A stretch of 62,881 bases of DNA from Eubacteriales bacterium (GTDB lineage: Bacteria > Bacillota > Clostridia > Lachnospirales > Lachnospiraceae): contig JAUNPJ010000012.1 of NCBI GenBank assembly GCA_030536755.1, forward strand, positions 1-62,881. Direction: 5' to 3'. Numbering within the stretch: position 1 is the first letter of the stretch; each line of letters opens with the position of its first letter. The translations under genes and the position numbers were made by a program. Shown piece after piece: positions 37,418-55,609 of this stretch. The notes below the pieces were generated by a model. It was not told where the DNA came from and made no database searches. It was given only the letters and a program-made list of their open reading frames with translations.

Positions 37418-37569
37418 ATATCCCCCCATGGACGGGATATGGCAGAGCGTATAGAACAGAACTTATATAGAGAAAAAAGCCTGGATTTCCGGGCTTTTTT
37501 TGTGTACCAAAAAAGTAAAAAAAACAACCCCCCGGGTGGCTTGTGCGGACTTTCACAGGATGATATGAT
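37418..37569 (+). promoter_or_regulatory. Metal-regulon promoter module A (before cbiMQO)
   Basis: Three parts. An inverted repeat ATATCCC (37418-37424) / GGGATAT (37434-37440). A terminator-like hairpin, AAGCCTGG ATTT CCGGGCTT followed by Ts, at about 37478-37501. Then ACCCCCCGGGTGGC (37527-37540) touching TTGTGC (-35, 37541-37546), 17 bases, TATGAT (-10, 37564-37569). The same arrangement occurs at 45277-45410 and 51489-51611, and the last part at 42550-42593. Confidence 0.75.
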
Positions 37570-37604
37570 AAACTCAGAAAGAACGTGAGGGGAGGCGATG
37601 TATG

Positions 37605-38609
37605 ATGCATATGGCAGATGCATTAGTATCACCGGCAGTAGCCGGTACGATGTATGTCTGTTCTGCAGCAGCGGCAGCATATTCGGTAAAAAAGGTAAGG
37701 TTGGAAAGTGATCCAAAGAAAATTCCGGTGATGGGAATTATGGGAGCTTTTGTATTTGCAACACAAATGATTAATTTTACGATACCGGGAACCGGCTCAA
37801 GTGGTCACTTGTGCGGCGGTATGCTTTTGACGGCGATTCTTGGACCTTATGCGGCATTTTTGACGATGATCGGAGTTTTGCTGATACAATGTCTGCTGTT
37901 TGCGGACGGAGGTCTTCTGGCTTTGGGATGCAATATCTGGAATATGGCTTTTTATGGCTGCTTTCTCGGATACTTCCTGCTGTGGAAGCCGATGATGAAA
38001 AAAGGCGCCAGCCGGGGAAAAATTGCGGCAGCATCGATTTTGGGATGTATGCTGACACTTCAGCTGGGAGCGTTTAGTGTGACGGTGCAGACGTTGCTTT
38101 CCCAAATTACAGATTTACCGTTTGCTGTGTTTGTGGGAACAATGCAGCCAATTCACTTGGCGATTGGATTTGTAGAAGGACTCATCACGACAGCTGTTCT
38201 CTGGTTTATTTATGAGGCAAGACCGGAAATTCTGATGGATGTAACAGAGTCAGAAGCAAAAGGAAAAGCTTCTTTCAAAGATACGATTGTGATTCTGGGA
38301 ATCCTTGTGGTTTTGATCGGCGGAGGACTTTCACTGGTAGCATCTTCCAATCCAGACGGACTGGAATGGTCGATTGAGAAAATTACAGGCTCTGCGGAGA
38401 TCGAATCAAAAGGAACAAACGCTTATACGGCGGCGGAAAGTATCCAGGAGACCACGGCAATTCTTCCGGATTATGCCTTTAAAGGTTCGGAATCTGTCAT
38501 TGGTACAACGTTTTCCGGAATTTTTGGCTCTTTGCTTGTTGTCGGTGTGTGCATAGGCGGCTGTTATGCATTTAAATTCTTCAGAAAAAAGGAAAAACAA
38601 TATGAGTAA
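37605..38609 (+). CDS. cbiM: Cobalt/nickel ECF importer, CbiM fused to CbiN-like PDGLE domain
   Basis: 334 aa membrane protein. MHMADALVSPAVAGTMY is the CbiM/NikM start, where the N-terminal Met-His binds the metal; hence I prefer ATG 37605 over 37602. About seven hydrophobic segments to residue 210, then a C-terminal NPDGLEWSIEKITG segment and a last membrane helix, i.e. the CbiN/PDGLE part fused on. Overlaps cbiQ by 8 bases. Metal, Co2+ or Ni2+, not decided by sequence. Confidence 0.9.
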   Translation: MHMADALVSPAVAGTMYVCSAAAAAYSVKKVRLESDPKKIPVMGIMGAFVFATQMINFTIPGTGSSGHLCGGMLLTAILGPYAAFLTMIGVLLIQCLLFADGGLLALGCNIWNMAFYGCFLGYFLLWKPMMKKGASRGKIAAASILGCMLTLQLGAFSVTVQTLLSQITDLPFAVFVGTMQPIHLAIGFVEGLITTAVLWFIYEARPEILMDVTESEAKGKASFKDTIVILGILVVLIGGGLSLVASSNPDGLEWSIEKITGSAEIESKGTNAYTAAESIQETTAILPDYAFKGSESVIGTTFSGIFGSLLVVGVCIGGCYAFKFFRKKEKQYE

Positions 38610-39369
38610 AATAGACGGTGCTATATATGAAATCCATTATATGGATACTGTCGCGGATAGAGACCAGTGGGTGAATCGGATTCATCCACTGGTTAAGCTG
38701 CTTTTGACAATTATTTACATTGCCGTGACAGTTTCTTTTTCAAAATACGATTTATCAGGAGTTCTCCTTATGGGCATTTATCCGGCTGTCATCTTTATTC
38801 TGGGAGAAATCTCTTTCCGTGACAGTATTCGAAGACTTCGCGTTGTGCTGCCTCTGGTATGTTTTGTGGGACTGTTTAATCCCTTTTTTGATCAGGTGCC
38901 TGTGGCACAGGTGGGCAGCCTGGTGATTACTTCCGGTATGATTTCCATGGTGACACTTATGATCAAAGGCGTCTACAGCGTGCTGGCGTCTTATCTGCTC
39001 ATTGCGACCACATCCATTGAAAAGATCTGCTATGCCATGCGTTTGTTGAAAATACCATCGGTGGTTGTGACACAAATCCAGCTTACCTATCGCTATGTTA
39101 CCGTTCTTCTGGGTGAGGCAAGCCGGATCATGCAGGCTTACAGCCTGCGGGCACCGGGACAAAAAGGCGTGCATTTTAAAGTGTGGGGATCGCTGGCGGG
39201 CCAGCTTCTCCTTCGCAGCATGGACAAGGCAAACGCTGTCTATGAGAGCATGATTCTTCGCGGATACAAGGGAGAATTCGCCTATGCATCCAGAACGAAA
39301 TGCAGAGCGAAAGATTATCTTTATCTTGTGGTGTGGATGGTAATCTTTGCGGTTTTAAAAATACTATAA
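38602..39369 (+). CDS. cbiQ: Cobalt/nickel ECF importer transmembrane protein CbiQ
   Basis: 255 aa. HPLVKLLLTIIYIAVTVSF start, QIQLTYRYV near 166, SLRAPGQKG near 193 and SMDKANAVYESMILRGY near 212 (EcfT coupling motif). Connects CbiM to the ATPase. Confidence 0.9.
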   Translation: MSKIDGAIYEIHYMDTVADRDQWVNRIHPLVKLLLTIIYIAVTVSFSKYDLSGVLLMGIYPAVIFILGEISFRDSIRRLRVVLPLVCFVGLFNPFFDQVPVAQVGSLVITSGMISMVTLMIKGVYSVLASYLLIATTSIEKICYAMRLLKIPSVVVTQIQLTYRYVTVLLGEASRIMQAYSLRAPGQKGVHFKVWGSLAGQLLLRSMDKANAVYESMILRGYKGEFAYASRTKCRAKDYLYLVVWMVIFAVLKIL

Positions 39370-39384
39370 CTATTGGAGAAAAAT

Positions 39385-40119
39385 ATGAGTCACATTCGAA
39401 TTAATTTTGAACATGTAAATTACAGCTACGAAAAAGCGATTCCTATTTTGCGGGATGTGACCTTTTCTGCGCACGAGCATGAAAGTATTGGTCTGATCGG
39501 TGCAAACGGGGTGGGAAAGTCTACACTTTTGAAGCTTCTGGTAGGCTTAAACCTTGGATACGAGGGAACGATTTCTGTAGAAGGAATGAAGGTGGAAAAG
39601 CAGATTCTTCCAAAGATCCGGGAGCGCATCGGTTATGTGTTTCAGGATTCCGACAGCCAGCTTTTTATGTCCACCGCATATGAAGATATTGCATTTGGGC
39701 CGAGAAATTATGGATTGTCGGAACCGGAGGTGCAGGAGCGGGTAGAACATGCGCTTTCGATGATTCACATTGAACATCTCAAAAACAAGCAGATTTATAA
39801 GATGTCGGGCGGCGAGAAAAAGATGGTTTCCATCGCAACCATCCTTGCCATGACACCGGACATTATCCTGATGGATGAGCCGTCCATCGCACTGGACCCG
39901 CGCAACCGGAGATATCTGATTCAGATTTTAAATCAATTTCATCACCTGAAGATTATTGCTTCGCATGATCTGGACATGATTCTGGATACCTGCAGCCGTG
40001 TCATTCTCATGGCAGAAGGAACGATCATTCGTGACGGAAAAGCAGAGGAAATTTTGTCAGACAAGGAAATTCTGGAGGCGAATGGTCTGGAATTGCCGTT
40101 GTGTATGCAGAGAAAATAA
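39385..40119 (+). CDS. cbiO: Cobalt/nickel ECF importer ATPase CbiO
   Basis: 244 aa. Walker A IGANGVGKSTLLK near 40, Q-loop VFQDSDSQLF near 87, signature MSGGEKKMVSIA near 138, Walker B IILMDEPSIALDP near 160. ATG 39385 follows GGAG; an upstream TTG is ignored. Completes CbiMQO. Confidence 0.92.
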   Translation: MSHIRINFEHVNYSYEKAIPILRDVTFSAHEHESIGLIGANGVGKSTLLKLLVGLNLGYEGTISVEGMKVEKQILPKIRERIGYVFQDSDSQLFMSTAYEDIAFGPRNYGLSEPEVQERVEHALSMIHIEHLKNKQIYKMSGGEKKMVSIATILAMTPDIILMDEPSIALDPRNRRYLIQILNQFHHLKIIASHDLDMILDTCSRVILMAEGTIIRDGKAEEILSDKEILEANGLELPLCMQRK

Positions 40120-40129
40120 TCAGATTCTG

Positions 40130-40200
40130 TTTTTCTGCGGCAAATTGATGGGGATTATTGATCAAGAAGGAAAGACACGTCAATGCTGGCGTGTCTTTTT
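40130..40200 (+). pseudogene. Remnant of the 3' end of the desulforedoxin-like gene with its terminator
   Basis: About 70 bases (TCTGCGGCAAATTGATGGG..., then AAAGACACG...CGTGTCTTTTTT) match the end of the gene at 42131-42469 plus its terminator (42440-42506) at more than 90% by eye. It marks a duplication or deletion junction directly after cbiO, and the hairpin probably still terminates cbiMQO. Confidence 0.75.
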
Positions 40201-40215
40201 TGAAGCAATTAGAAA

Positions 40216-40244
40216 TTGCCTGACTTATTCATTCATGGTAAGAT
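40216..40244 (+). promoter_or_regulatory. Promoter of the full-length AAA-ATPase gene
   Basis: TTGCCT (40216-40221), 17 bases, TAAGAT (40239-40244). Confidence 0.5.
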
Positions 40245-40287
40245 AAAAGAAAAGAACGGCGATGTCGATAGAAAGGTGGCAGTAAGT

Positions 40288-41922
40288 ATGGGATTTTATC
40301 TGAATAGTCGGGCACCGTATACGCTTTACCAAAATGAAACAAATCAGCCATATTTTGTAGATAAGACAAAAATGTTGAAGGAACTGTTTCCGCTTGTAGA
40401 AGCCGGCAATAAACATATTTGTCTGACAAGACCAAGAAGATTTGGAAAAACAATTATGGCAAATATGGTTGCGTCTTTTTTTTCAAAAGCATGTGATGCA
40501 AAAGAGATTTTTGATAAACTGGAGATTTCTGGTGAACCGGCGTATGAACAGCACAGAAATCAATATTATGTGGTTGCTGTTTCTTTTAATGATGTGCCAA
40601 GAAACTGCTGTTTTTATCAGCAGTATATTGAGCGGATCGAAAATCGTTTGATTAAAGATCTTCAGAGAGAATTTCCAGATGTAGTCTTTGATTTGGAGGA
40701 TGCCGTTTGGGATTCTTTTATGACATTATATATGGAGCATCCCGACATTCAGTTTATCTTTGTATTGGATGAATGGGATTTTATTTTTCATCAGGATTTT
40801 GTGACAGAAACAGATAAAAAATCGTATCTCATTTTTCTGAGAAGTCTGTTAAAAGACAGACCGTATGTGCGCCTTGCATATATGACAGGAATTCTGCCGA
40901 TTTCTAAATATTCCAGTGGGTCGGAGTTAAATATGTTTGCAGAATATACTATGGCAAGGAGTCGATTATTTGGCGAGTATTTTGGATTTTCTGACCAGGA
41001 AGTGGATGTGCTGTATGACAGATACTGTGAAAAACAAGAGGAACCGCGTTTCGTCAGCAGGGATGAATTGAGGCGATGGTATGATGGATATGCGACTCCA
41101 TCAGGTGTACGTTTATATAATCCTCGTTCGGTAGTTCTTGCCCTTACCAATAACAATCTGGATAATTATTGGACGAGTTCCGGACCATATGATGAAATTT
41201 TTTATTATATAAGGAATAATGTAGATTCTGTCAGAGATGAGATTGCTTTGATGGTATCTGGAGTGTCCATTCCGACGAAAATACAAGAATATGCGGCTAC
41301 TTCGCAAAATCTCAAAACAAAGGAAGAGATTTTATCTGCTATGGTTGTGTATGGTTTCCTGAGCTATGAAAATGGAACAGTTTCCATACCAAACAAAGAG
41401 CTGATGGATCAGTTTTCTGATATGCTCAGGCGGGAAACTTCTCTGGGATATGTATATCAACTGGCAAAAGAATCTGAAAAAATGCTCAGAGCGACTCTGA
41501 ATGGGGATACGGAAACAATGGAACGAATACTTGAATTGGCACATGATACGGAAACGCCGATTCTTGCTTACAATCATGAGACAGAATTGAGTGCGATAGT
41601 GAATCTGGTCTATTTGTCGGCACGCGATTCATATAGGGTGGAACGGGAAGAAAAAGCAGGAAAAGGCTTTGTGGATTTTATTTTTTATCCGGAAACCAGT
41701 CTGGCATCAGATGGTATTATCCTCGAACTGAAAGTGGGACACTCGCCGGAAGAAGCAATTGCTCAGATTAAAGAAAAGAACTATGCGGTACGGTTTATGG
41801 GCAAGTTTTCTCAACAGAAAACAAAGCCTTTGCGTATTCTGCTGGTTGGCATCGGATATGACAGAAATCAGAAGAAACATAGATGCAAGGTGGAAGTGAT
41901 GACACCAAAATGGGAAACATAA
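40288..41922 (+). CDS. AAA-ATPase with C-terminal PD-(D/E)XK domain (PF09820/PF08011)
   Basis: 544 aa. ATPase part: FVDKTKML near 25, Walker A RPRRFGKTIMANM near 50, Walker B IQFIFVLDEWDFIF near 155, RRWYDGYATPSG near 268. C-terminal part: GKGFVDFIFYP near 455 and GIILELKVGHSPEEA near 475, the D...ExK nuclease core. GAAAGGTGG before ATG 40288. Intact relative of the truncated gene at 8911. Family role unproven; sits between metal-transport units as a likely insertion. Confidence 0.85.
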   Translation: MGFYLNSRAPYTLYQNETNQPYFVDKTKMLKELFPLVEAGNKHICLTRPRRFGKTIMANMVASFFSKACDAKEIFDKLEISGEPAYEQHRNQYYVVAVSFNDVPRNCCFYQQYIERIENRLIKDLQREFPDVVFDLEDAVWDSFMTLYMEHPDIQFIFVLDEWDFIFHQDFVTETDKKSYLIFLRSLLKDRPYVRLAYMTGILPISKYSSGSELNMFAEYTMARSRLFGEYFGFSDQEVDVLYDRYCEKQEEPRFVSRDELRRWYDGYATPSGVRLYNPRSVVLALTNNNLDNYWTSSGPYDEIFYYIRNNVDSVRDEIALMVSGVSIPTKIQEYAATSQNLKTKEEILSAMVVYGFLSYENGTVSIPNKELMDQFSDMLRRETSLGYVYQLAKESEKMLRATLNGDTETMERILELAHDTETPILAYNHETELSAIVNLVYLSARDSYRVEREEKAGKGFVDFIFYPETSLASDGIILELKVGHSPEEAIAQIKEKNYAVRFMGKFSQQKTKPLRILLVGIGYDRNQKKHRCKVEVMTPKWET

Positions 41923-41940
41923 AAAGAAGTTTGAAGAAGG

Positions 41941-41967
41941 GTTACTGTTCACTCTGTTCACAGTAAC
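41941..41967. repeat. 27-bp palindromic repeat unit
   Basis: GTTACTG TTCAC TCT GTTCA CAGTAAC. It is the exact reverse complement of 55887-55913 and matches the 3' end of the 143-bp repeats with one difference. Confidence 0.85.
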
Positions 41968-42004
41968 GAAGAAGGCTTCTTACTATACAATTTTTGTAAA
42001 AAAT

Positions 42005-42035
42005 ACTTGATAAAAACTATCAAGTATGCTATAAT
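42005..42035 (+). promoter_or_regulatory. Promoter with overlapping inverted repeat
   Basis: TTGATA (42007-42012), 17 bases, TATAAT (42030-42035). ACTTGATA (42005-42012) and TATCAAGT (42019-42026) form an inverted repeat over the -35 and spacer, and ATCAAGT recurs at 42042. A repressor site is likely; regulator unknown. Confidence 0.65.
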
Positions 42036-42130
42036 GAAAACATCAAGTAAACGTAAACAAAGTGAATTGTTCTGGGGGGACGCCGGACAATTACAGCAAA
42101 TCCAATTTTTATGAAAGAAGGTATTTACTT

Positions 42131-42469
42131 ATGAAAATCAGACTGGATCAGGCAATTGTAGAATTTATTCCGGAAAATGACATTGAGACTGCAGAATTAA
42201 AGGCTTTATGGGTGAGAATGAGCAACTGTGTCGGCAATACGAAGCAGCTTGAGCCGATGGGCATTTACACTCCGGAAGATCCGAATGCAAGAAATGCAGC
42301 ACGTTTCCATATCGAGGGACTGACCGAACAGGAACTGAAAACCGTACCGGCATTCTTTGCTCCATACGATACAGATGTATATTGTGCAACCTGCAACAAG
42401 ACTGTATTTGTGAAAAAAGGTGATCAGATTCCGATCTGCTGCGGCAAACTGATGGAGATTATTGATTAA
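42131..42469 (+). CDS. Protein with C-terminal desulforedoxin-like domain
   Basis: 112 aa. The C-terminal 35 residues YCATCNKTVFVKKGDQIPIC-CGKLMEI carry the CxxC...CC pattern of desulforedoxin/rubredoxin-like Fe(SCys)4 sites. The N-terminal 70 residues (MKIRLDQAIVEFIPENDIE...) are unrecognised. ATG 42131 follows GAAAGAAGG. A repressor-like promoter suggests a stress-induced redox protein. Its tail is duplicated after cbiO. Confidence 0.75.
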   Translation: MKIRLDQAIVEFIPENDIETAELKALWVRMSNCVGNTKQLEPMGIYTPEDPNARNAARFHIEGLTEQELKTVPAFFAPYDTDVYCATCNKTVFVKKGDQIPICCGKLMEIID

Positions 42470-42475
42470 GGAAGG

Positions 42476-42506
42476 AAAGACACGTCAATGTTGGCGTGTC
42501 TTTTTT
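42476..42506 (+). terminator. Terminator after the desulforedoxin-like gene
   Basis: AAAGACACG (42476-42484) pairs with CGTGTCTTT (42495-42503), then Ts. Confidence 0.85.
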
Positions 42507-42549
42507 GGCAAAAAAATGTGATGTAAAAGAGTATGGCAAACATAAAAAT

Positions 42550-42593
42550 ATCCCCTGCCGGGGGTTGTGACATATTTCGCAAAATGATATTCT
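42550..42593 (+). promoter_or_regulatory. Metal-regulon promoter D (before the methyltransferase pair)
   Basis: ATCCCCTGCCGGGG (42550-42563) touches TTGTGA (-35, 42565-42570), 17 bases, TATTCT (-10, 42588-42593). Same geometry as modules A-C; the upstream repeat and hairpin are absent. Confidence 0.7.
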
Positions 42594-42629
42594 TATAGGT
42601 AGTAAAAAGAAAGATGAGGATATTATTTC

Positions 42630-43385
42630 GTGGAATTATTACAAGATATAGAACATTACTGGACGAACCGTGCCGAGGGGTATTCGCAGGTTAATCAGGA
42701 GGAACTGGCAGGAGACAACAAGATTCACTGGCTTAATGAGCTGGAACGACACATCCCAAAAGAGGAAAAAGAGAATCTGAAAATCCTGGATATCGGAACC
42801 GGTCCGGGATTTTTTTCAATTATTCTGACAAAGGCAGGCTACCGTGTGACGGCGGTGGATTACACAGAAGCCATGCTGGAGGAAGCAAAAAAGAATGCCG
42901 GGGAACTGGCAGACAAAATAGAGTTTCGCCGTATGGACGCGCAGAATCTGGAGTTTGCGGATGAAATGTTTGATGTGATCGTCACAAGAAATCTGACCTG
43001 GAATCTGGAAAAGCCGGTGCAGGCGTATCAGGAGTGGCAGCGTGTCCTGAAAAAAGGCGGCATTTTGCTGAATTACGATGCCAACTGGTATCACCATCTG
43101 TTTGATGAAGAAAAACGAAAAGAATATGAGCAGGACAGAGCGCGTGTCAGTGAGACCGGCATGGAGGATCATTATACTTGTACGGACATTGATGCGATGG
43201 AGGAGATTGCAAGACAGGTGCCGCTGAGTCAGAGGATGCGTCCTCAGTGGGACGAACAGGTACTTCGTGAACTTAGATTTTCACAGATTGAGATTGACAT
43301 GGACGTTTGGAAAGAAGTCTGGTCTGAGGTCGAGAAAGTAAATTACGGCTCCACGCCGATGTTTTGCGTAAAAGGAATTCGATGA
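42630..43385 (+). CDS. Class I SAM-dependent methyltransferase (metal-regulon associated)
   Basis: 251 aa. SAM motif I KILDIGTGPGFFSIIL near 49-64, motif II VTAVDYTEAMLEEA near 72, MDAQNLEF near 100, VTRNLTWNLEKP near 116 and LKKGGILLNYDANW near 138. The NLTW motif recurs in the fused copy at 43399 and a related N terminus occurs at 55399. GTG start with GAGGA 9 bases upstream. Its promoter matches those of three metal importers. Substrate unknown; a small metal ligand is my inference. Confidence 0.85.
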   Translation: MELLQDIEHYWTNRAEGYSQVNQEELAGDNKIHWLNELERHIPKEEKENLKILDIGTGPGFFSIILTKAGYRVTAVDYTEAMLEEAKKNAGELADKIEFRRMDAQNLEFADEMFDVIVTRNLTWNLEKPVQAYQEWQRVLKKGGILLNYDANWYHHLFDEEKRKEYEQDRARVSETGMEDHYTCTDIDAMEEIARQVPLSQRMRPQWDEQVLRELRFSQIEIDMDVWKEVWSEVEKVNYGSTPMFCVKGIR

Positions 43386-43398
43386 GGAGAATAACAAC

Positions 43399-45120
43399 AT
43401 GGCATACACAGAAGAAAAAAACAGAGAGACAGACTGGGACAGACCGCTGGTACTCGGAAATTTTACCGTGCATCAGGGAGAATCCGTCAGTGGTTTTCTG
43501 AAGCTTGAGGATGGGGAATTTGAGTTTCCGGCGACCATTATCCGGGGAGACAGGCCGGGAAAGACAGTGCTCATTACGGCGGGCATTCATCCGGGAGAAT
43601 ATGTGGGAATTGAGGCGGCTGTAGAGCTTGGCCGGGAACTCAGACCGGAAAAAATTGACGGCACGGTCATTATTATCAAAGTGATCAGCAGAGAAGAATT
43701 TGAGCAGAGAAAAGGAAGTGCGGGGATGACAGGCGGAAGAAATCTCTATCGCCTTTTCCCTGGAAATATGGATGGAGAGCGCCTGGAACGTCTTGCCGAT
43801 TTGGTGACGAGACAGCTTCTTTCAATTGCTGACTATTATATTGATCTGCACAGCGGCGATGATTATGAAGAACTGACGCCGTATGTCTACTATGCAGGAA
43901 AGGCGGATCCTGAAGTTTGCCAGATGTCCAGGAAAATGGCAGAGCAGGTGGATGTGCCGTATATGGTGATGTCTTTGACTGCAACTGGAGGCTCTTACAA
44001 CTATGCGGCATCGATCGGTGTGCCGAGTATTATGATCGAGAGGGGCGGCATGGGCGGCTGGACGATGGAAGAGGTACAGTCGACAAAACGTGATGTCCGC
44101 AATATTCTTAAATTTGTTGGAATCTGTGAGGGACAGCGTGATTACCGCCATTACTATCCGCTCGATGTCAAGAACGTGCAGTATCAGGCTGCGAACGTCA
44201 AGGGCTTATGGTATCCGCGAAAGAAAGCGGGAGATTTAATCATCGAGGGAGAAGTCCTCGGTGTTGTAAAAGATTATGAGGGACGCGTGCTTGAGGTCAG
44301 CCGCGCAGTCAGCAGCGGCGTCATTCTTTACCAGACGGGAAGTTTGCAGGTAGTCAAGAAAGGACCGATGATCGCCTACGGTGAGATTGCCTATGAGAGA
44401 GACGAGCGCAAGGAGCGCATTACCTCCTACTGGACGAAACGAAGCGACAGTTTTATGGAGCAGAGAAGAGAAGAACTGCACAGTGCGCTTGCTGACCGAT
44501 GGATGAAGGAAATTACACAGCATATCCCGCAGGGAGAAAAACTGAAGATTCTCGATGTCGGCTGCGGAGCCGGATTTTTCTCGATTCTGCTGGCAAAATA
44601 CGGACATGAGGTGACAGGAATTGATTTGACACCCGATATGATTCGTCATGCCCAGGAACTGGCGGAGGAAGAAAAGGTTGATTGTACCTTCCGGGTGATG
44701 GATGCAGAAAATCCGGAATTTGCGGATGATACGTTTGACCTGATTATTTCCAGAAATCTGACCTGGACATTGCCGGACCCGGCAAGGGCTTATCGGGAGT
44801 GGAGCCGTGTGCTGAAAAAAGGTGGTGTGCTGCTGAATTTTGATGCCAATTACGGAGCGGTGGATTTTGCGGATACTTCCGATCTTCCAACCAATCATAC
44901 GCATAACAAGATTGAGACAGAGATGATGCAGGAGTGTGAGGATATTAAGCGCCAGCTTCCGATCAGCTCTCATGCCCGTCCTGCCTGGGATCTGGAGACA
45001 CTTGGAAAAATCGGCATGGAGCAGTTTTCCATTGATCTTGGTATCAGCAGGCGGATTTATGTGGAGAAGGATCAGTTTTATAATCCGACACCGCTGTTTT
45101 TGTTAAAGGCAGTGAAGTAG
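43399..45120 (+). CDS. AstE/AspA-type zinc hydrolase fused to a SAM methyltransferase
   Basis: 573 aa. Residues 1-335: succinylglutamate desuccinylase/aspartoacylase fold with zinc ligands in TAGIHPGEYVG (H, E) near 60 and YIDLHSGDD (H) near 148, and SIMIERGGMGGW near 212. Residues about 345-573: methyltransferase homologous to the upstream gene (KILDVGCGAGFFSILLA near 384, ISRNLTWTLPDP near 452, VLLNFDANYG near 475). 13 bases after the first methyltransferase, so co-expressed. Known relatives of the first half cut amide bonds of N-acyl amino acids; with methylation this could build or recycle an amino-acid-derived chelator (inference). Confidence 0.85.
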   Translation: MAYTEEKNRETDWDRPLVLGNFTVHQGESVSGFLKLEDGEFEFPATIIRGDRPGKTVLITAGIHPGEYVGIEAAVELGRELRPEKIDGTVIIIKVISREEFEQRKGSAGMTGGRNLYRLFPGNMDGERLERLADLVTRQLLSIADYYIDLHSGDDYEELTPYVYYAGKADPEVCQMSRKMAEQVDVPYMVMSLTATGGSYNYAASIGVPSIMIERGGMGGWTMEEVQSTKRDVRNILKFVGICEGQRDYRHYYPLDVKNVQYQAANVKGLWYPRKKAGDLIIEGEVLGVVKDYEGRVLEVSRAVSSGVILYQTGSLQVVKKGPMIAYGEIAYERDERKERITSYWTKRSDSFMEQRREELHSALADRWMKEITQHIPQGEKLKILDVGCGAGFFSILLAKYGHEVTGIDLTPDMIRHAQELAEEEKVDCTFRVMDAENPEFADDTFDLIISRNLTWTLPDPARAYREWSRVLKKGGVLLNFDANYGAVDFADTSDLPTNHTHNKIETEMMQECEDIKRQLPISSHARPAWDLETLGKIGMEQFSIDLGISRRIYVEKDQFYNPTPLFLLKAVK

Positions 45121-45127
45121 AATATAT

Positions 45128-45270
45128 GTTACTGTTCACACGGCACTATCCCGCGAGGTGTTTTGGCATGAATATGCCAAAATCCCGAGACATACAAGCC
45201 AAAATTCCATTGCCGAAGGCAATCTGGAATGAATTTTGGCTAAGTTACTGTGAACGGAGTGAACAGTAAC
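45128..45270. repeat. 143-bp structured repeat, copy 1
   Basis: Ends are 12-bp perfect inverted repeats, GTTACTGTTCAC and GTGAACAGTAAC. Inside are TTTTGGCAT GAAT ATGCCAAAA (45161-45182) and a larger hairpin from AGCCAAAATTCC to GAATTTTGGCT. The last 27 bases equal the solo repeat. A second copy with about two differences lies at 61354-61496. MITE- or REP-like; no coding capacity. Confidence 0.9.
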
Positions 45271-45276
45271 GAATAT

Positions 45277-45410
45277 ATCCCCCGGACAGGGATGAAGGAA
45301 GAGGGGAAAAATAAGAAAAAGCCTGGATTTCCGGGCTTTTTCTGACTGAAAAAAAAGAAAAAAAACAACCCCCCGGGGAGCTTGTGAAAGACTTAACACT
45401 TTGGTAAGAT
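45277..45410 (+). promoter_or_regulatory. Metal-regulon promoter module B (before the nik-like operon)
   Basis: ATCCC (45277-45281) / GGGAT (45289-45293); terminator hairpin AAGCCTGG ATTT CCGGGCTT near 45322-45345, the same 26 bases as in module A; ACCCCCCGGGGAGC (45368-45381) touching TTGTGA (-35, 45382-45387), 17 bases, TAAGAT (-10, 45405-45410). Confidence 0.75.
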
Positions 45411-45416
45411 AAAGTC

Positions 45417-45600
45417 ACAGGAACACTCCTAAAGAAGTTTACAGGAGACTTCTAAAACTATCAGAATTAAAAAATGAATTCACTCAACTCAACAAACACA
45501 CATACGAAGACCTCCAAACTCGTATTGAAAATTCTGATAGCCATAAATGTCACAGGGAAAGATTTCTATGAGTATTCTTTATAGAAATCTTTTTCTTCGT
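45417..45600 (+). promoter_or_regulatory. Long leader with terminator before the nik-like operon
   Basis: From the predicted start to the first gene are about 220 bases. CTATCAGAATT (45458-45468 region) pairs with AATTCTGATAG (45530-45540 region), enclosing a small ATACGA/TCGTAT stem. Then AAAGATTTCTAT pairs with ATAGAAATCTTT followed by TTCTT (about 45568-45600): an intrinsic terminator 40 bases before the start codon. GTCACAGG occurs on both sides of the first structure. No match to a riboswitch I know. Confidence 0.6.
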
Positions 45601-45639
45601 GGAGTTTGTTTTTGTTGAAAGGAGGAAGAGAGAAGAAAG

Positions 45640-46581
45640 ATGAATTATGTATGCAAACGTATACTGCAGTTGATACCAATTCTGATTGGTATTACATTTT
45701 TATCTTTTGCGATGATGCGAGTAGCCGGAAGTGATGCGGTCACGGAAATGTATGCGAACCGCGGAACGGAAGTGTCGCAGGAGATTATAGATGCGAAGCG
45801 TGCAGAGCTTGGTTTGGATCAGCCGTTTATGGTGCAGTATTTCAACTGGATGGGCGGTATGCTTCGAGGTGATATGGGAACAAGCTATGTGTCCGGAGAG
45901 GATGTGTTTCATACCTTTCTGTCAAAACTGCCGGCGACTTTGATTTTGACAGCCATGTCGATTGTGATGACTGTTGTGATTTCGATTCCGCTTGGTATAT
46001 TGGCAGCAGTTCGTCACGACCGATTTGTCGATCTGCTTTTGCGGTTTTGTAGTTTTGCGGGAAACGCAATGCCGAATTTCTTTGTTGGTATGGTGCTGAT
46101 GCAGCTGCTCAGTATTAAGCTGGGATGGCTTCCGATTATTTCTACGGGTGTCAATGTAAAGAGTGCGATGATGCCAACGTTGACGCTTGCCATTTCCATG
46201 TCAGCAAAATATATGCGGCAGGTACGTGCAACGGTGCTTGAGGAATTAAATAAAGATTATGTGCAGGGAGCAAAGGCAAGAGGGGTGCGTGATTCGGTTA
46301 TTCTCTGGAAGAATGTCATAAAGTCTTCCATGCTGACAATCATCACGCTGCTTGCACTCTCGATTGGGAGCCTCTTGGGAGGTACTGCGATCATTGAAAG
46401 TATTTTTATGTGGGACGGCGTTGGAAAACTGGCGGTGGATGCAATCAATATGCGTGATTATCCGCTGATTCAGGCCTATGTAATGTGGATGGCGATTATC
46501 TATGTTCTTGTCAATCTGATTACGGATCTTTTGTATCATCATTTGGACCCACGCATTCGTCTGGGGGTGACTAAGGGATGA
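45640..46581 (+). CDS. NikB/DppB-like ABC importer permease
   Basis: 313 aa, six hydrophobic segments. Opening YVCKRILQLIPILIGITFLS is typical; EAA loop near 195-230 (RATVLEELNKDYVQGAKARG). AAGGAGG before ATG. First gene of a five-gene operon in the order permease, permease, ATPase, ATPase, binding protein. Confidence 0.9.
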   Translation: MNYVCKRILQLIPILIGITFLSFAMMRVAGSDAVTEMYANRGTEVSQEIIDAKRAELGLDQPFMVQYFNWMGGMLRGDMGTSYVSGEDVFHTFLSKLPATLILTAMSIVMTVVISIPLGILAAVRHDRFVDLLLRFCSFAGNAMPNFFVGMVLMQLLSIKLGWLPIISTGVNVKSAMMPTLTLAISMSAKYMRQVRATVLEELNKDYVQGAKARGVRDSVILWKNVIKSSMLTIITLLALSIGSLLGGTAIIESIFMWDGVGKLAVDAINMRDYPLIQAYVMWMAIIYVLVNLITDLLYHHLDPRIRLGVTKG

Positions 46582-47426
46582 GAGAACCAACAGTGAGAAC
46601 GCAGAATGTTCATAAGAATCATTTAAAGACACGATTGATTCTATTTGGTACGCTGGCACTGCTTTTGATTATTTGTTCCTACTTTAGTGAATCTTTATGT
46701 CCCTATGATCCTTATTTGCAGGACCTGAGCAATGCAAAGGCAGCACCGTCGGCAGCGCATCTTCTCGGTACAGACCGTTATGGGCGTGACATGTTATCGC
46801 GTGTGATTGCGGGAAGTAAGACAAGTATTTATTCCACCCTTTTATTAGTGGGATTTATCACCGTGTTTGGAACGATCATTGGGATTATCTGCGCCTGGAA
46901 CGGAAGCTGGCTGGATACACTTCTGATGCGCATTTCTGATATGTTTCTGGCTTTTCCGGGACTGGTGTTTGCACTTGCGGTTGCGGCTGTGCTCGGCGGA
47001 GGGGTACAGAATGCGATTATTGCGTTAGCGGCTATCAGCTGGCCAAAATATGCGCGAGTCGCCCGCAGTCAGACGCTTGCCCAGAAGGAAACGGTGTATA
47101 TCCGGGCGGCAAAGCTGTCTGGATGCAGTACAGGAAAACTGATTTTTAAGCATATTCTTCCGAATATTTTTGGCCCCATTCTTGTCACTGCCATGCTTGA
47201 CATCGGTACGATGATGATGGAGCTTGCCGGACTTTCCTTTTTGGGACTGGGCGCGAAGCCGCCGATTGCGGAATGGGGAAGTATGATGAGTGATACAAGA
47301 AACCTGCTCACGACACATCCATGGGTGACGTTGTCACCGGGAATTGCAATTTTTATATCGGTCATGATTTTCAACCTTTTGGGTGATACAGTCAGAGACT
47401 GGTTAGATCCGAGAAACGGGAGGTAG
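46578..47426 (+). CDS. NikC/DppC-like ABC importer permease
   Basis: 282 aa. HLLGTDRYGRDMLSRVIAGSK near 55 is the family signature; EAA loop YIRAAKLSGCSTGKLIFKHI near 173. Overlaps the previous gene by 4 bases. Confidence 0.9.
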   Translation: MREPTVRTQNVHKNHLKTRLILFGTLALLLIICSYFSESLCPYDPYLQDLSNAKAAPSAAHLLGTDRYGRDMLSRVIAGSKTSIYSTLLLVGFITVFGTIIGIICAWNGSWLDTLLMRISDMFLAFPGLVFALAVAAVLGGGVQNAIIALAAISWPKYARVARSQTLAQKETVYIRAAKLSGCSTGKLIFKHILPNIFGPILVTAMLDIGTMMMELAGLSFLGLGAKPPIAEWGSMMSDTRNLLTTHPWVTLSPGIAIFISVMIFNLLGDTVRDWLDPRNGR

Positions 47427-47431
47427 GAAGC

Positions 47432-48211
47432 ATGTCAGAGATGATTCGATATGAGCATGTAGACATCAGTTACAACAGAAGGATGGTGGTACATGACGTT
47501 CATTTTTCTGCTCAGGAAGGCGAGATACTTGGAATCGTCGGTGAGAGCGGAAGTGGAAAATCAACGCTTATAAAGGCGGCAATGGGACTTCTTGGCAGGG
47601 ATGGTCTTGTCACGAGAGGCGATATCTGGTACAAAGGCAAAAATCTTCCGGATCTTTCTCCAAAAGAAATGCGCAAAATTTGCGGAGCAGAGATCGGAAT
47701 GATTTTTCAGATGGCAGGAAGCTCGTTCTGTCCGATTCGCACCGTTCGAGATCAGCTTTATGAAACAGTAAGCGAGCACAAAAAGACTGAGAAAAAGGAA
47801 TTTGAGGATCAGGCGCAGGAGCTTCTGGCAAAATTTGGTTTTGAAGATCCGAAAAGAGTGCTGGACAGTTATCCGTTTGAATTGTCCGGAGGCATGCAGC
47901 AGCGAGTTGGAATTGCAGCAGCTATGTTGTTGAAGCCGAAAATTCTTATGGCGGATGAACCGACCTCAGCTCTCGATGTTTCGGTTCAGAAACAGGTGGT
48001 GGAAGAAATGCTTATGGTCAGAGAGATATTTGGCACGACAATTTTGCTTGTGACACATAACCTGGGAGTTATTCGTGCAATGGCCGACAATATGCTGGTC
48101 CTCCATCAGGGAGAAACTATGGAATATGGAAAAACAAAAGAAATCCTTGCGCATCCGCAGTCAGAATATACTCAGAAATTACTCTCTGCGGTACCTAAGC
48201 TTCGGAGGTGA
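47432..48211 (+). CDS. NikD-like ABC importer ATPase
   Basis: 259 aa, the short NikD size rather than the 330 aa of OppD. Walker A GESGSGKSTLIKA near 34, signature ELSGGMQQRVGIA near 150, Walker B ILMADEPTSALDV near 170. Confidence 0.9.
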   Translation: MSEMIRYEHVDISYNRRMVVHDVHFSAQEGEILGIVGESGSGKSTLIKAAMGLLGRDGLVTRGDIWYKGKNLPDLSPKEMRKICGAEIGMIFQMAGSSFCPIRTVRDQLYETVSEHKKTEKKEFEDQAQELLAKFGFEDPKRVLDSYPFELSGGMQQRVGIAAAMLLKPKILMADEPTSALDVSVQKQVVEEMLMVREIFGTTILLVTHNLGVIRAMADNMLVLHQGETMEYGKTKEILAHPQSEYTQKLLSAVPKLRR

Positions 48212-48218
48212 GCGATCA

Positions 48219-48977
48219 ATGGAACCAATCTTAAAGGTGGAACACCTGACAAAAATCTTTCATTCGAAGGGAAGAGAGGACTATACAGCTGTCGATGATG
48301 TCAGTTTTTCTTTATTACCGGGTGAGAAGCTTGCAATTATCGGAGAAAGCGGAAGCGGGAAGACGACAGTGGTAAATATGATCACCAGACTTTTGGATGC
48401 AACGGCAGGAACGATTGTATTGGATGGACAGGAAATCACCGAAATCAAGGGCAGAAAACTGAAAGAAGTGTACAGAAAAATGCAGATGGTTTTTCAGACA
48501 CCGACCGACAGTTTTGATCCTAGATGTACACTTGGAGATGGTGTTGCAGAAAGTCTTGTAAATCATGGAATGTCAAAAAAAGAGGCCATGAAGGAAGCCG
48601 TGCGTCTTCTGGGCCTGTGTGGACTTAATGAAGAATTTGCAAAGCGTTATCCGCATGAAGTCAGCGGAGGACAATGCCAGCGTGCGGCAATCGCCCGGGC
48701 AATCGCGATCAAACCGAAAGTGCTGATCTTGGATGAAGCAACCTCTGCGCTTGATGTTACGGTACAGGAGGACATTCTGAATCTGTTGACAGAGTTAAAG
48801 GAAGAGATGGACATGTCCTATCTGTTCATTTGCCACGATATTGCGCTTGTTCAGAACTTCTGTGACAGAGTTCTTGTGATGTATCACGGTAAAATTGTGG
48901 AGGAAGGCATTCCAGATGAGGTGATACAACATCCAAAAGAGGCATACACAAAAAATTTGATCGATAGTGTTTTGTAA
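48219..48977 (+). CDS. NikE-like ABC importer ATPase
   Basis: 252 aa. Walker A GESGSGKTTVVNM near 41, signature EVSGGQCQRAAIARA near 147, Walker B VLILDEATSALDV near 168. ATG 48219 follows GGAGGTG at the end of the NikD-like gene; an apparent upstream extension inside that gene is not used. Confidence 0.9.
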   Translation: MEPILKVEHLTKIFHSKGREDYTAVDDVSFSLLPGEKLAIIGESGSGKTTVVNMITRLLDATAGTIVLDGQEITEIKGRKLKEVYRKMQMVFQTPTDSFDPRCTLGDGVAESLVNHGMSKKEAMKEAVRLLGLCGLNEEFAKRYPHEVSGGQCQRAAIARAIAIKPKVLILDEATSALDVTVQEDILNLLTELKEEMDMSYLFICHDIALVQNFCDRVLVMYHGKIVEEGIPDEVIQHPKEAYTKNLIDSVL

Positions 48978-49036
48978 ATCTATCCTTTGCCTTACAGGAA
49001 AGGCATGAAATATAAATTTATGAAGGAGAAGTACAT

Positions 49037-50638
49037 ATGAAGATGAAACGATTAGCAGCATTTGCACTCAGTGCATGCATGTGCATGAGCCTTCTGGCTG
49101 GCTGTGGAAGTGATCAAAGTACAAAAGAATCAAAAGAACAGACAGAAGCAGCAGACACAGCATCTACGGAAGAATCATCGGAAAAGAAAACCATGGTGAT
49201 TGGTGATACGACATTCAATGCTTCGAACGAAGAACCGGATGTTAATCCGCACAATGCTTATGCCGGATGGGCATGCATCCGTTATGGTGTTGGTGAAACA
49301 TTGGTTAAGTATTCTGACAATATGGAAATTCAGCCATGGCTGGCAACAGAATGGGAAAACGTTGATGACTTGACATGGAAAATTACGCTTCGCGACGATG
49401 TGTCTTACTCCAGCGGCCGTAAAATGGACGGAGAATCTGTAAAACAGTGTCTGGAGCATCTTCTTGAGGTGCATGATCGCGCAAAGAGTGATACAAAGAT
49501 TGAATCCATTGAGGCTGATGGACAGGTGCTTACTATTAAAACATCTGAGCCAAAACCGGCTCTTCTTAATTACCTTGGAGATCCGTATGGTTGTATCATT
49601 GATATTGACGCTGGTTTTGATAACGGAATCGTTGTCGGAACAGGTCCTTATATCGCAGTTGATTTAAAGACAGATGACCATTTGACTTTGGTGAAAAATG
49701 AAAATTACTGGGGTGGCATGCCGCATATTGATGAGCTGACGATCCGCACAATTACTGATGGAAATACGTTGGCAAATGCCCTTCAGTCTGGTGAAGTTCA
49801 GGCCGCTTACGGTATGGCTTATGAGAGCTATCCGATTTTTGAGAATGACAATTTCCAGTTCTCACAGATCTCAACATCCCGCTGCTTTTTCGGAAAAATG
49901 AATTTTGATGAAAATTCTGTCTGCGCAGATCCGGCAGTTCGTAAAGCAATTGCGATGGGTATTGATAAGGAAAGTTTTGTCGCAACACTTCTTGAAGGAA
50001 ATGGATATCCGGCAAATGGCGTCTTCCCGGAAGGTTCTGCATTTGGAGGCGATAAAGTTACGACAGAAACTTATGATCCGGAAGGTGCAAAAGAAGTACT
50101 GGAAGAGGCTGGATGGAAAGATTCTGATGGAGATGGCATCCGTGAAAAAGATGGACGCAAGCTTGTTGTAAAATGGCTGACTTACCCAAGCCGTCAGGAG
50201 CTTCCTCTTCTTGCAGAATCAGCTCAGGCAACGTTGAAAGACATCGGTATGGAAGTAGACATCAACTGTACCGCAGACAATAATGAAGTGGTAAAAGATT
50301 CCTCAGCGTGGGACATCTATGCAATGGCAAATGTTCAGGCTCCGACCGGAGATCCGGAATACTGGTTCACCGTATTTGCGACCTCCGATGCAACAAAGAA
50401 TCAGGGAAAATACAGCAGTGAAAAACTGGACGAACTGGAGAAGCAGCTGAGTGAAACATTTGACGTAGACAAGAGAGCAGAACTTGCAGTACAAATGCAG
50501 CAGACGGTTCTGGATGACAATGCATTTGTATTCTGTTCATTCCTGAAAATGAGCATGATTTCAAGATCTAATGTTTCAAACTATACGTCTCATGCATGTG
50601 ACTACTATCAGGTAACAGCAGATCTTGACATTCAGTAA
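49037..50638 (+). CDS. Nickel/peptide-class substrate-binding lipoprotein (NikA-like)
   Basis: 533 aa. Lipobox LLAGC, a linker rich in S/T/E/K (25-50), then family 5 solute-binding domain (EPDVNPHNAYAGWACIRYGV, WKITLRDDVSYSSGRKMDGE, GTGPYIAV near 195, RKAIAMGIDKESFV near 305). NikA proteins bind nickel with a chelator such as two histidines; together with the short ATPases and the CbiMQO-type promoter this favours a metal or metal-chelate over peptides. Confidence 0.85.
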   Translation: MKMKRLAAFALSACMCMSLLAGCGSDQSTKESKEQTEAADTASTEESSEKKTMVIGDTTFNASNEEPDVNPHNAYAGWACIRYGVGETLVKYSDNMEIQPWLATEWENVDDLTWKITLRDDVSYSSGRKMDGESVKQCLEHLLEVHDRAKSDTKIESIEADGQVLTIKTSEPKPALLNYLGDPYGCIIDIDAGFDNGIVVGTGPYIAVDLKTDDHLTLVKNENYWGGMPHIDELTIRTITDGNTLANALQSGEVQAAYGMAYESYPIFENDNFQFSQISTSRCFFGKMNFDENSVCADPAVRKAIAMGIDKESFVATLLEGNGYPANGVFPEGSAFGGDKVTTETYDPEGAKEVLEEAGWKDSDGDGIREKDGRKLVVKWLTYPSRQELPLLAESAQATLKDIGMEVDINCTADNNEVVKDSSAWDIYAMANVQAPTGDPEYWFTVFATSDATKNQGKYSSEKLDELEKQLSETFDVDKRAELAVQMQQTVLDDNAFVFCSFLKMSMISRSNVSNYTSHACDYYQVTADLDIQ

Positions 50639-50672
50639 CTTTGAAGATTGTTTTTATGCAAAAAAAGGATGA

Positions 50673-50701
50673 TGGGTGGGACAGAACCGTCCCACCTCTT
50701 T
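50673..50701 (+). terminator. Terminator of the nik-like operon
   Basis: GGTGGGAC (50674-50681) pairs with GTCCCACC (50688-50695), then TCTTTT. Confidence 0.85.
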
Positions 50702-50705
50702 TATG

Positions 50706-51374
50706 ATGAAAAATAAAACACTTGATTTGACAAAAGGGAATACGATTACCGTATTGAGATACTTTGTTCTTCCGATTCTTTTGGGAAGTCTCATTCAGCA
50801 GTTGTATGTAACTGCGGATGCAGTGATTGTTGGGCAGTTTGTCGGAAAAAATGGGCTTGCCGCTGATGCGATGGCACCGGCACTTACCACTTTCACGGCA
50901 CAAAATATCGGAGCGGGTAAGTATGACAGAGTAAAAAAAGGCGTGTTTGTGGGCACTGCCATGTCTACAATTTGTTGTGTTATGATTAGCATTGTTTTAT
51001 TCTTTGGTACACCAATCATGGGAAAATGGTTTCTTACATTTTCTGATGCGGGAGTCATTGTGCCTTTGGCATCTGGATATATGCGATTACTGGCTCCGTT
51101 TTTCTTTTTCTATGCTATTGCAGAAGCGCTTTCCGGAGCGTGCTCAAGTATGGGAGATACACTGAAACCGATGGTGGTTACATTGACCTGTATGTGTGTG
51201 CTTCGTATCGTGGGAATTATTTTTATCTTTCCGTTACACCATACTATGGAATGTATTGCATTTATTTATATTGCATCTTGGGCAGTTACAGCTGTGGCAT
51301 TTGTGTTGATGTTTGTCATACGTTTGCGTATGCTGGAGATAAAGAAAAATAAAAAAAGAGAGTTTGTATTTTAA
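50706..51374 (+). pseudogene. MATE efflux protein with large internal deletion
   Basis: About 223 aa against the usual 440-460. Residues 1-50 (TKGNTITVLRYFVLPILLGS, YVTADAVIVGQFVG) are the normal MATE start; then the frame jumps to AQNIGAGKYDRVKKG, which normally lies near residue 270. So roughly 200 residues are missing in frame. It also lacks a ribosome site, starting right on the preceding terminator. Not expected to work as a transporter. Confidence 0.8.
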
Positions 51375-51400
51375 AATAAAATTTTATTTATGCAAAAATA

Positions 51401-51448
51401 AAACAGTATATAGAAACTAAAATCATTGTTTCTATATACTGTTTTTTT
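51401..51448 (+). terminator. Terminator after the MATE remnant
   Basis: AAACAGTATATAGAAAC (51401-51417) pairs with GTTTCTATATACTGTTT (51428-51444), then Ts. Confidence 0.88.
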
Positions 51449-51488
51449 ATATATATGTAGAAAAACAGAAAAAATATAACTTGTAATC

Positions 51489-51611
51489 ATCCCCCGGATA
51501 GGGATAAAAATTAGAAAAAACATGCGATTTTTGGCTGAAAATCAAGGGAAAAATAAAGGAAAAGTTTATCCCCATGGGTGGCTTGTGCGGTGTAATTATA
51601 TTCGTTAAGAT
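51489..51611 (+). promoter_or_regulatory. Metal-regulon promoter module C (before the fec-like operon)
   Basis: ATCCC (51489-51493) / GGGAT (51501-51505); ATCCCCATGGGTGGC (51568-51582) touching TTGTGC (-35, 51583-51588), 17 bases, TAAGAT (-10, 51606-51611). Same order as modules A and B, with a weaker GATTTT/AAAATC hairpin in place of the shared terminator. Confidence 0.75.
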
Positions 51612-51728: not shown

Positions 51729-51765
51729 TTTGAGATATATACAAAAAACAGAAGGAGGAACAGAA

Positions 51766-52845
51766 GTGGGAGCATCAGTAAAACACAGAGGATTGAGGAA
51801 GATTTTTAATCGGGATGATCCGAATATGAAAATTATTTTGGTGATTATGGCAATTGTTGCAATTGTTTCGATTGTTCTGGCTGTGGGACTGGGACCCGTT
51901 AGCGTCCGGCCGGAAATTACAGCGAAGGTTATATTGAGCAAGATTCCGGGAATTGGTTCAAATATACCAGTTACTTGGGAAAATTTGGATGAAAATATTG
52001 TTATGAGCCTTCGGCTTCCTCGTGTGCTATTGGGAATGATTGTTGGAGCTTCGCTGGCTGTGACAGGTGTGGCTATGCAGGCACTTGTAAGGAATCATCT
52101 GGCAGATCCATTTATTTTGGGCGTCTCCTCAGGTGCAGCGGCATTTGCAACACTTGGTATGCTATTTGGCGTATTTTCTTTTCTTGGCAGATATTCTTTG
52201 TCCATCAGTGCATTTCTTGGAGCAGGAGCAACGATTGTTCTTGTTTATATGATTTCAAGAGTACGGGGGAGGATTAATATTACACAGCTTCTTCTGTCTG
52301 GTGTGGCGATTTCCATGATTATGGATGGTGTGACAAAAATCATTACTTTGAGCGCACCGAATGCTTTAGGTCTTCATAATGCAGAATTCTGGATGGCAGG
52401 AAGCCTTGCAGGAGCGAAGTGGGGATATCTGACATTACCACTTGTTGTTATGCTTCTTTGCATTTCTGTTCTGATGATTAATTATCGTGCCTTAAATGCA
52501 CTTCTTCTTGGAGATGATACGGCGGGTTCTCTTGGAATTAATGTAGCGAGAATGCAGAAACTGCTTGTATTGATTGCTTCTCTGTTGGCAGGCGTAACGA
52601 TTGCGGTGAGTGGAAGTATTGGATTTATCGGCCTGATGTGTCCACATATTGCAAGACTTCTCGTAGGTGCTGATCATAAGAAGGTATTGCCAGTAGCGGC
52701 TCTTTTAGGCGGAATCCTAGTTGTATGGACAGATGTAGCAGCACGAATGATTATTGCACCGGAAGAACTTCCGCTTGGTATTTTGACTGCAGTATTTGGC
52801 GGACCATTCTTTATTATATTGCTGAAGAAAAATACAAGGGGGTAG
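51766..52845 (+). CDS. FecCD/BtuC-type metal-chelate ABC importer permease
   Basis: 359 aa, about nine to ten hydrophobic segments. RLPRVLLGMIVGASLAVTGV near 94, QALVRNHLADPFILGVSSGA near 116, GFIGLMCPHIARLLVG near 290 are family hallmarks of siderophore/haem/B12 importers. GTG 51766 with AAGGAGG 7 bases upstream; an in-frame ATG at 51730 has none. Confidence 0.92.
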   Translation: MGASVKHRGLRKIFNRDDPNMKIILVIMAIVAIVSIVLAVGLGPVSVRPEITAKVILSKIPGIGSNIPVTWENLDENIVMSLRLPRVLLGMIVGASLAVTGVAMQALVRNHLADPFILGVSSGAAAFATLGMLFGVFSFLGRYSLSISAFLGAGATIVLVYMISRVRGRINITQLLLSGVAISMIMDGVTKIITLSAPNALGLHNAEFWMAGSLAGAKWGYLTLPLVVMLLCISVLMINYRALNALLLGDDTAGSLGINVARMQKLLVLIASLLAGVTIAVSGSIGFIGLMCPHIARLLVGADHKKVLPVAALLGGILVVWTDVAARMIIAPEELPLGILTAVFGGPFFIILLKKNTRG

Positions 52846-52853
52846 GAACAACT

Positions 52854-53645: not shown

Positions 53646-53698
53646 TGCCATATGGCTGCAAGAGTGCATAAATCAACAAAGAGTAAAGGAGAAAAAAG

Positions 53699-54691: not shown

Positions 54692-54744
54692 CAGGTCAAA
54701 AACTTGATTTTATGCATTCAAAATAAAACAAGGAGACAGGTATT

Positions 54745-55530: not shown

Positions 55531-55545
55531 CAGAAAAATAGAAAC

Positions 55546-55596: not shown

Positions 55597-55609
55597 GTGG
55601 AGGTGAAAG

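Follow-up and report, generated by a model that had tools for sequence, protein, structure and literature searches.

An operator abutting the -35 box of four metal-uptake promoters suggests a nickel-sensor-like on-switch for nickel or cobalt import in a Lachnospiraceae bacterium

Contig JAUNPJ010000012.1 of a Lachnospiraceae genome (Eubacteriales bacterium, assembly GCA_030536755.1), analysed here over all of its 62,881 nucleotides and hereafter called the window, carries four plus-strand transcription units with a common promoter design, as well as a plus-strand gene for a His-rich CsoR-family protein of 118 amino acids (32889..33245; PF02583, 98.7 bits against a cut-off of 22.8), which is proposed here as their regulator. 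The first unit is composed of cbiM with a PDGLE domain (37602-38609), cbiQ (38566-39369) and a gene for a cbiO-like ATPase (39373-40119), with matches to PF01891, PF13190, PF02361 and PF00005, and by family cbiMQO (37602..40119) is predicted to be an importer of cobalt or nickel of the energy-coupling factor (ECF) type. The second codes for an S-adenosylmethionine-dependent methyltransferase (42630-43385; PF08241) and an AspA/AstE-methyltransferase fusion (43399-45120; PF24827 plus PF08241); this AspA/AstE-type deacylase fusion adjoins the related methyltransferase, and a 152-base stretch is repeated between them at 74%. The third encodes, by Pfam, a nik/opp-type ATP-binding cassette (ABC) importer (45640..50638) with permeases at 45640-46581 and 46578-47426, ATPases at 47432-48211 and 48075-48977 and a binding protein at 49037-50638 (PF00496). 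The fourth is a fec-like operon (51730..55320; PF01032, PF01497) of a FecCD permease (51730-52845), an ATPase (52725-53645) and a binding protein (53699-54691), with a DJ-1/PfpI-like protein at its end (54745-55320; PF01965). A nickel or cobalt specificity of the targets is put forward because of CbiM and of the second nik permease, which is above the NCBIfam nickel permease cut-off (NF045474, 306.8 versus 300). The other four genes of the nik operon are under, or without, an NCBIfam nickel cut-off, and the NCBIfam matches of the fec-like operon are all under cut-off and do not settle its substrate.

One ungapped motif, TATCCCCC-nn-GGGGG-CTTGTG, is common to the four promoters and ends in the -35 box; read directly, each promoter shows C4-C6, a short gap, G2-G5 and then TTGTGA or TTGTGC, with a -10 box 17 bases further on. 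The cbiM operator with its -35 box lies at 37525..37546 on the plus strand (CAACCCCCCGGGTGGCTTGTGC; own-genome profile E 0.0053, matrix score 31.2), with TTGTGC at 37541-37546 and TATGAT at 37564-37569. Before the methyltransferase pair, the most divergent of the four plus-strand sites (42549..42570, TATCCCCTGCCGGGGGTTGTGA; E 0.476, score 24.6) is followed by boxes TTGTGA (42565-42570) and TATTCT (42588-42593). The nik site is at 45366..45387 (CAACCCCCCGGGGAGCTTGTGA; E 0.0115, score 31.1) with TTGTGA at 45382-45387 and TAAGAT at 45405-45410, and the fec-like site is at 51567..51588 (TATCCCCATGGGTGGCTTGTGC; E 0.02, score 28.4) with TTGTGC at 51583-51588 and TAAGAT at 51606-51611. A preliminary description of this DNA had proposed one promoter/operator design for the four units with a constant 17-base spacer; the coordinates match and the spacer is 17 in 4/4. 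It had also written the element as CCCC-N0-4-GGG(G), with a variable gap, and this has to be corrected: aligned with the sites of relatives, the window sites form a fixed 16-base word, CCCC-N6-GG-(C/G)TTG, and since the length is fixed, "N0-4" only marks where the C and G runs stop. The consensus of 40 sites is TATCCCCCnnGGGGGCTTGTGn, with invariant positions A2, C4-C7, G15, T17 and T18.

The matrix behind the above scores was built from 36 sites, all of them in other genomes, with the four window sites excluded. The next-best score in the window was 7.6 on the plus strand and 10.8 on the minus strand, where the same palindromes are read backwards. Among 400 first-order Markov windows the highest maximum was 22.5 (mean 10.0), and all four real sites are above it, confirming that the shared design is real and well beyond chance. 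When the 3.84 Mb genome itself was scored with a profile, R1, the four sites stood alone at E<=10 among the 150 of 515 first-look candidates scored, and no fifth site, at a nickel exporter for example, was found among them; since the 40 training sites of R1 include the window's own four, the 36-site matrix serves as the independent check. A plain pattern with CTTGTG returned the cbiM, nik and fec sites only (reversed control 0), the methyltransferase site being missed because it reads GTTGTG.

The preliminary description had suggested that one metalloregulator, possibly the His-rich CsoR-family protein, controls all four units. In a survey of 299 family genomes from 298 genera, 85 were CsoR-positive, defined as carrying a relative of the 32889 protein at >=82 bits; among the 61 cbiM loci used no genome fell between 71 and 82 bits. 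These loci were taken from 107 genomes with a CbiM match and comprise 45 at >=52% identity and 16 of a 31-39% class, leaving aside a contig-edge piece (G066), a second tandem copy (G243) and weaker matches. With a matrix built from 16 methyltransferase-upstream sites only, and 350 bases before cbiM scored at a threshold of 10, the motif was found in 21 of 22 CsoR-positive and 0 of 23 CsoR-negative genomes, the highest negative reaching 7.4 (Fisher 5.8e-12; 45 family genomes). The second CbiM family behaved likewise (10/11 CsoR-positive versus 0/5 CsoR-negative loci). In the converse test, with a matrix from cbiM sites only and a search span of 350 bp, the motif preceded the methyltransferase gene in 21 of 26 CsoR-positive and 0 of 4 CsoR-negative loci, the 30 loci being those among the matches listed. 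The CsoR label changes nine times or more on the CbiM tree, where only two of nine possible independent contrasts lie on well supported branches, both agreeing. Gene neighbourhood points the same way: in 7 of the 32 genomes with this CsoR and a scored cbiM, CsoR is encoded within 2 kb of cbiM (G098, G036, G081, G234, G292, G211, G257), and in G004 the motif separates the CsoR gene from a divergently oriented methyltransferase gene. The suggestion of a single regulator, and of the 32889 protein as that regulator, is supported by presence and absence, by gene neighbourhood and by the motif at orthologous operons. To judge from these comparisons, the 32889 protein is very probably the regulator of the four units.

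A motif scan of the orthologous operons of relatives had been named in advance as what could refute the shared regulon; the motif is present in other genera, and the four promoters are considered a real, conserved regulon. A first strict pattern, run over the 299 genomes, led to nikA-like, nikB, methyltransferase, cbiM, FecCD and DJ-1/nikB genes. It matched 27/299 genomes (reversed control 15/299), and in 13 of these genomes, that of the window among them, the site inspected was near transporter, methyltransferase or cbiM genes, all 13 being CsoR-positive; the sites inspected in the remaining 14 resemble chance matches. These counts cover inspected sites only, a second site in G130 standing outside them, and among the 13 the site of G136 was near gene fragments only. 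In G136, of the same genus, one locus (L015) shows three motif sites within about 1.4 kb by short methyltransferase-like and ABC ATPase open reading frames, and the genome is without a cbiM match; its sites are possibly a decaying regulon. A wider locus scan placed the motif also before FecB, an FmdE-like protein, a free-standing AspA and the second CbiM family, and, with weaker scores of 15.9-22.3, before 8 of 110 His-rich CsoR loci (L045, L066, L068, L175, L177, L178, L181, L182). A gene for a small membrane protein (136-142 aa) was also preceded by the motif, at L208 (10573-10983), where it comes after the His-rich CsoR gene, and at L115, where the copy is without a Pfam match. A stricter pattern, run on 196 class genomes, matched 4 of the 190 that lie outside the family, and its reversed control matched 3 genomes; at none of the four outside loci is the site directly followed by a cbiM, nik or methyltransferase gene, and the one in G386 is a perfect intergenic site.

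Close relatives of the 32889 protein are found, by named loci, in Blautia, Robinsoniella, Fusicatenibacter and other Lachnospiraceae. Its closest solved structure is InrS (5FMN, E 2.9e-23), and His32, Cys64, His89 and Cys93 align with InrS His21, Cys53, His78 and Cys82, which are described as nickel ligands in PMC7055735. The residue in each of these four columns is identical in 110/110 aligned relatives, the invariant Cys of helix 2 (Cys64) included, with the His21 column falling in a loosely aligned His-rich tail. Genomes with a full-length acetyl-CoA synthase carried the His-rich CsoR in 34 of 37 cases, against 51 of the 262 others (Fisher 3.6e-18; 299 family genomes). Acetyl-CoA synthase is a nickel enzyme, and acetogenesis depends on nickel. 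NikR is discarded as a candidate regulator, as NikR_C (PF08753) was matched neither in the own genome nor in any of the 299 family genomes (controls matched 5/14). Taken together, the likeness to InrS, the ligands, the link to acetyl-CoA synthase and the lack of NikR matches point to nickel, possibly cobalt, as the metal that the 32889 protein would sense.

The window encodes a second CsoR-family protein, without a His-rich tail (55610..55885, plus strand; PF02583, 93.5 bits), which the preliminary description had named alongside the 32889 protein. Its best NCBIfam match is RicR, under cut-off, and it has no residue at the InrS His21 column, so that the N-terminal His ligand is absent. An operator of another type, ATACCCCCATGGGTAT at 55963..55978, lies within a strong TTGACA-17-TATAAT promoter before an E1-E2 ATPase gene (55893). 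Two such ATACCC...GGGTAT operators in the own genome lie within promoters, one centred at about -18 in TTGACA-17-TATAAT and one at about -20.5 in TTGCAA-17-TATAAT; a third is situated just downstream. Operators of this type precede the ATPase at 55893 and a second CsoR gene. Because of these operators and the missing His ligand, the 55610 protein is unlikely to regulate the four units. Plain CsoR paralogues also occur in motif-negative genomes (G124 and G243, for example) and therefore do not explain the motif. Of the two proteins, the one at 32889 is supported and the one at 55610, a CsoR of a different type with an operator type and place of its own, has been dropped.

As to the sign of control, at 76 sites the best -10 box followed the -35 hexamer at 17 bases in 46 and at 18 bases in 14, and the hexamer began with TTGT in 59 and with TTGA in one. 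Assuming a start 7 bases past the -10 box, the centre of the palindrome is at about -43. Class II activators sit at about -43. The targets here (cbiMQO, methyltransferases, nik and fec-like genes) are not the exporter or detoxification genes typical of CsoR/RcnR, and neither these targets nor the layout suit the usual CsoR logic of exporter repression. InrS has been reported to bind upstream of nik and to enhance nik expression (PMC7055735), which by analogy is a precedent for import control by this family. Activation by the metal-free protein is favoured, since the repressor layout within promoters differs from that of the four sites and InrS is reported to enhance nik; an activating sign seems likely. 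From these data we infer binding, the identity of the metal and activation over repression as follows. The metal-free tetramer of the 32889 protein would bind the C-tract/G-tract palindrome abutting the -35 box and help RNA polymerase use a promoter whose -35 is poor (TTGTGN) and whose -10 is good, and Ni(II) or Co(II) would then fill a Cys-His-Cys plus N-terminal His site, upon which the protein would leave the DNA and import would stop. To this reading as a whole, in which the four promoters are one regulon and an InrS-like protein activates import when metal-free and leaves upon Ni(II) or Co(II), we assign a probability of roughly 0.6.

Several observations weigh against it. The literature describes the known members of the CsoR/RcnR family as proteins that derepress exporters (PMC7689651). 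At no fewer than five sites the palindrome is kept and the -35 part has decayed (CTTCCG, CTTACA, CTTAAA); the cbiM sites of G036, G081, G150, G219 and G234 keep the palindrome without TTGT, and the link to the -35 box is therefore not absolute. G298 has both CsoR and cbiM and scores 0.5 (sequence TCTCCCCCAGGGAGAG), G069 has CsoR and a second-family cbiM and scores 7.6, each below the threshold of 10, and the five CsoR-positive methyltransferase loci outside the 21 have no site within 350 bp, G081 among them having one 1.2 kb upstream. A sign test on the CbiM tree cannot reach significance with two contrasts. Furthermore, the own genome has no full-length acetyl-CoA synthase to name as its nickel or cobalt client, and the window's own His-rich CsoR gene has no motif before it.

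The evidence on regulator and motif would fit equally well if the same protein worked with the opposite sign, the metal-bound His-rich CsoR being a co-repressor over the -35 box by an allostery inverted for the family. Co-repression is the usual logic of importers, as with NikR, Fur and Zur, and an operator that touches the -35 box makes occlusion possible. However, a repressor needs neither the weak -35 seen at nearly all sites nor the fixed distance to the -10, the operators of the other CsoR type in this genome lie inside the promoter, and characterised family members are described as being released from DNA by metal (PMC4235346, PMC7689651), which makes co-repression unlikely. The textbook mechanism of the family (PMC7689651), with metal-free protein repressing and metal inducing the units, for instance to handle or export the metal, has little to recommend it here, as the targets are by family import systems, whose induction by metal would be harmful, and the layout is unlike the repressor layout of the same genome; we regard it as very improbable.

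Co-occurrence alone cannot name the binder, and in 25 of the 32 genomes with both genes CsoR lies away from cbiM; a different DNA-binding protein co-inherited with a bystander CsoR could be the true regulator. This we consider improbable, given that C-tract/G-tract palindromes are the type of site reported for CsoR proteins (PMC3902906), that CsoR adjoins cbiM in seven genomes and faces the methyltransferase gene in G004, and that, among the regulators profiled across the genomes, many motif-negative genomes have plain CsoR paralogues and 0/299 have NikR. It is hardly credible that the four sites resemble each other by chance, or that they are copies of a single duplicated promoter on which no regulator acts. 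The stretches upstream of cbiM and nik, including a hairpin described below, are alike across about 70 bases, which suggests copying, but in other genera the motif precedes orthologous genes that are unrelated to each other and its flanks have changed, no score among the 400 simulated windows reached any of the four sites, and the presence and absence tests on both CbiM families contradict either origin.

Further upstream, an ATCCC...GGGAT repeat can be read in the sequence before cbiM (37420..37438), nik (45277-45293) and fec (51489-51505). The preliminary description had counted it towards the design, and it is present at three of the four sites, but of the 22 regions compared upstream of cbiM in CsoR-positive genomes (one of them shortened by a contig end) a single one showed it, that of the window itself. 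It is therefore ruled out as a core design element, and a role as an extra weak operator is possible. A terminator-like hairpin upstream of the cbiM promoter (37473..37500) has a twin upstream of nik (about 45314-45342), and the earlier remark that the two units have it in common is borne out by folding energies of -18.5 and -20.2 kcal/mol (z -5.0 and -5.9); upstream of fec there is no such hairpin (-3.7 kcal/mol, z -0.4). As A runs precede and T runs follow, the hairpin has the look of an intrinsic terminator that works in both directions. An element of 144 bases, whose ends (GTTACTGTTCAC...GTGAACAGTAAC) are complementary, occurs at 45128-45271 and 61354-61497 in two copies that are 99% alike. 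Pieces of its ends are also present near 41941 and 55887, and it resembles a small repeat of the mobile or palindromic kind.

Among the neighbouring genes, one for an Mrp/NUBPL-type P-loop ATPase (33280..34110, plus strand; PF10609, 304.8 bits) adjoins the regulator gene, and an AAA-ATPase-like/PDDEXK_9 protein (40216-41922) is encoded between cbiO and the methyltransferase unit. A MATE transporter match (50676-51374) spans only the end of the family model and is probably a remnant. The short open reading frame at 55399-55683, just before the second CsoR gene, resembles by eye the start of the methyltransferase family (EYW...YSQ...EEL) and is probably a remnant. At Rfam gathering scores the window gave six tRNA matches only, with no metal riboswitch in the leaders, ruling out a metal-responsive riboswitch such as NiCo.

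Like the 32889 protein, InrS of Synechocystis PCC 6803 belongs to the CsoR/RcnR family; it responds to Ni(II), is the closest solved sequence and has its four nickel ligands aligned. Unlike in the window, InrS mainly represses the exporter gene nrsD, whereas all four genomic sites here precede import or associated genes; moreover, the 32889 protein has a longer His tail, and its proposed sites are fixed against a weak -35 in many genera. RcnR and DmeR share the fold family, and their response to Ni or Co and G/C-tract operators would match those proposed for the 32889 protein, yet both repress exporters, and His is described as replacing their last Cys (PMC7055735), in contrast to the Cys-His-Cys of the 32889 protein. 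The CsoR/RicR copper repressors have PF02583, the Cys-His-Cys triad and, if its proposed operators are right, C-tract/G-tract palindromes in common with it, but the copper operators of this genome are of the ATACCC...GGGTAT type inside the promoter, and the 55610 protein has no N-terminal His ligand. NikR does the job that is proposed for the 32889 protein, matching nickel import to supply, with an unrelated fold, and NikR_C is found in 0/299 family genomes.

Searches of open-licence papers brought up no description of an uptake regulon under a CsoR-family protein in Firmicutes. The tie, seen by comparison with relatives, between the shared site and a nearby protein that resembles a nickel sensor suggests that the import of nickel or cobalt has a dedicated on-switch. 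A wider proposal, at somewhat less than even odds, is that a CsoR-family protein serves as dedicated import activator in NikR-less Lachnospiraceae, most of those bearing acetyl-CoA synthase included, and governs a whole nickel/cobalt starvation regulon through a stereotyped promoter. This regulon would take in enzymes not known in nickel acquisition, namely the methyltransferase and AspA/AstE-methyltransferase pair, the DJ-1-like protein and, elsewhere, the FmdE-like protein. The analysis names a candidate regulator, operator and metal for nickel or cobalt uptake in a large gut family in which no NikR was found. If true, a member of the CsoR family would be a dedicated import activator and not an export repressor, and the so far unexplained methyltransferase and AspA-like genes would be assigned to metal acquisition.

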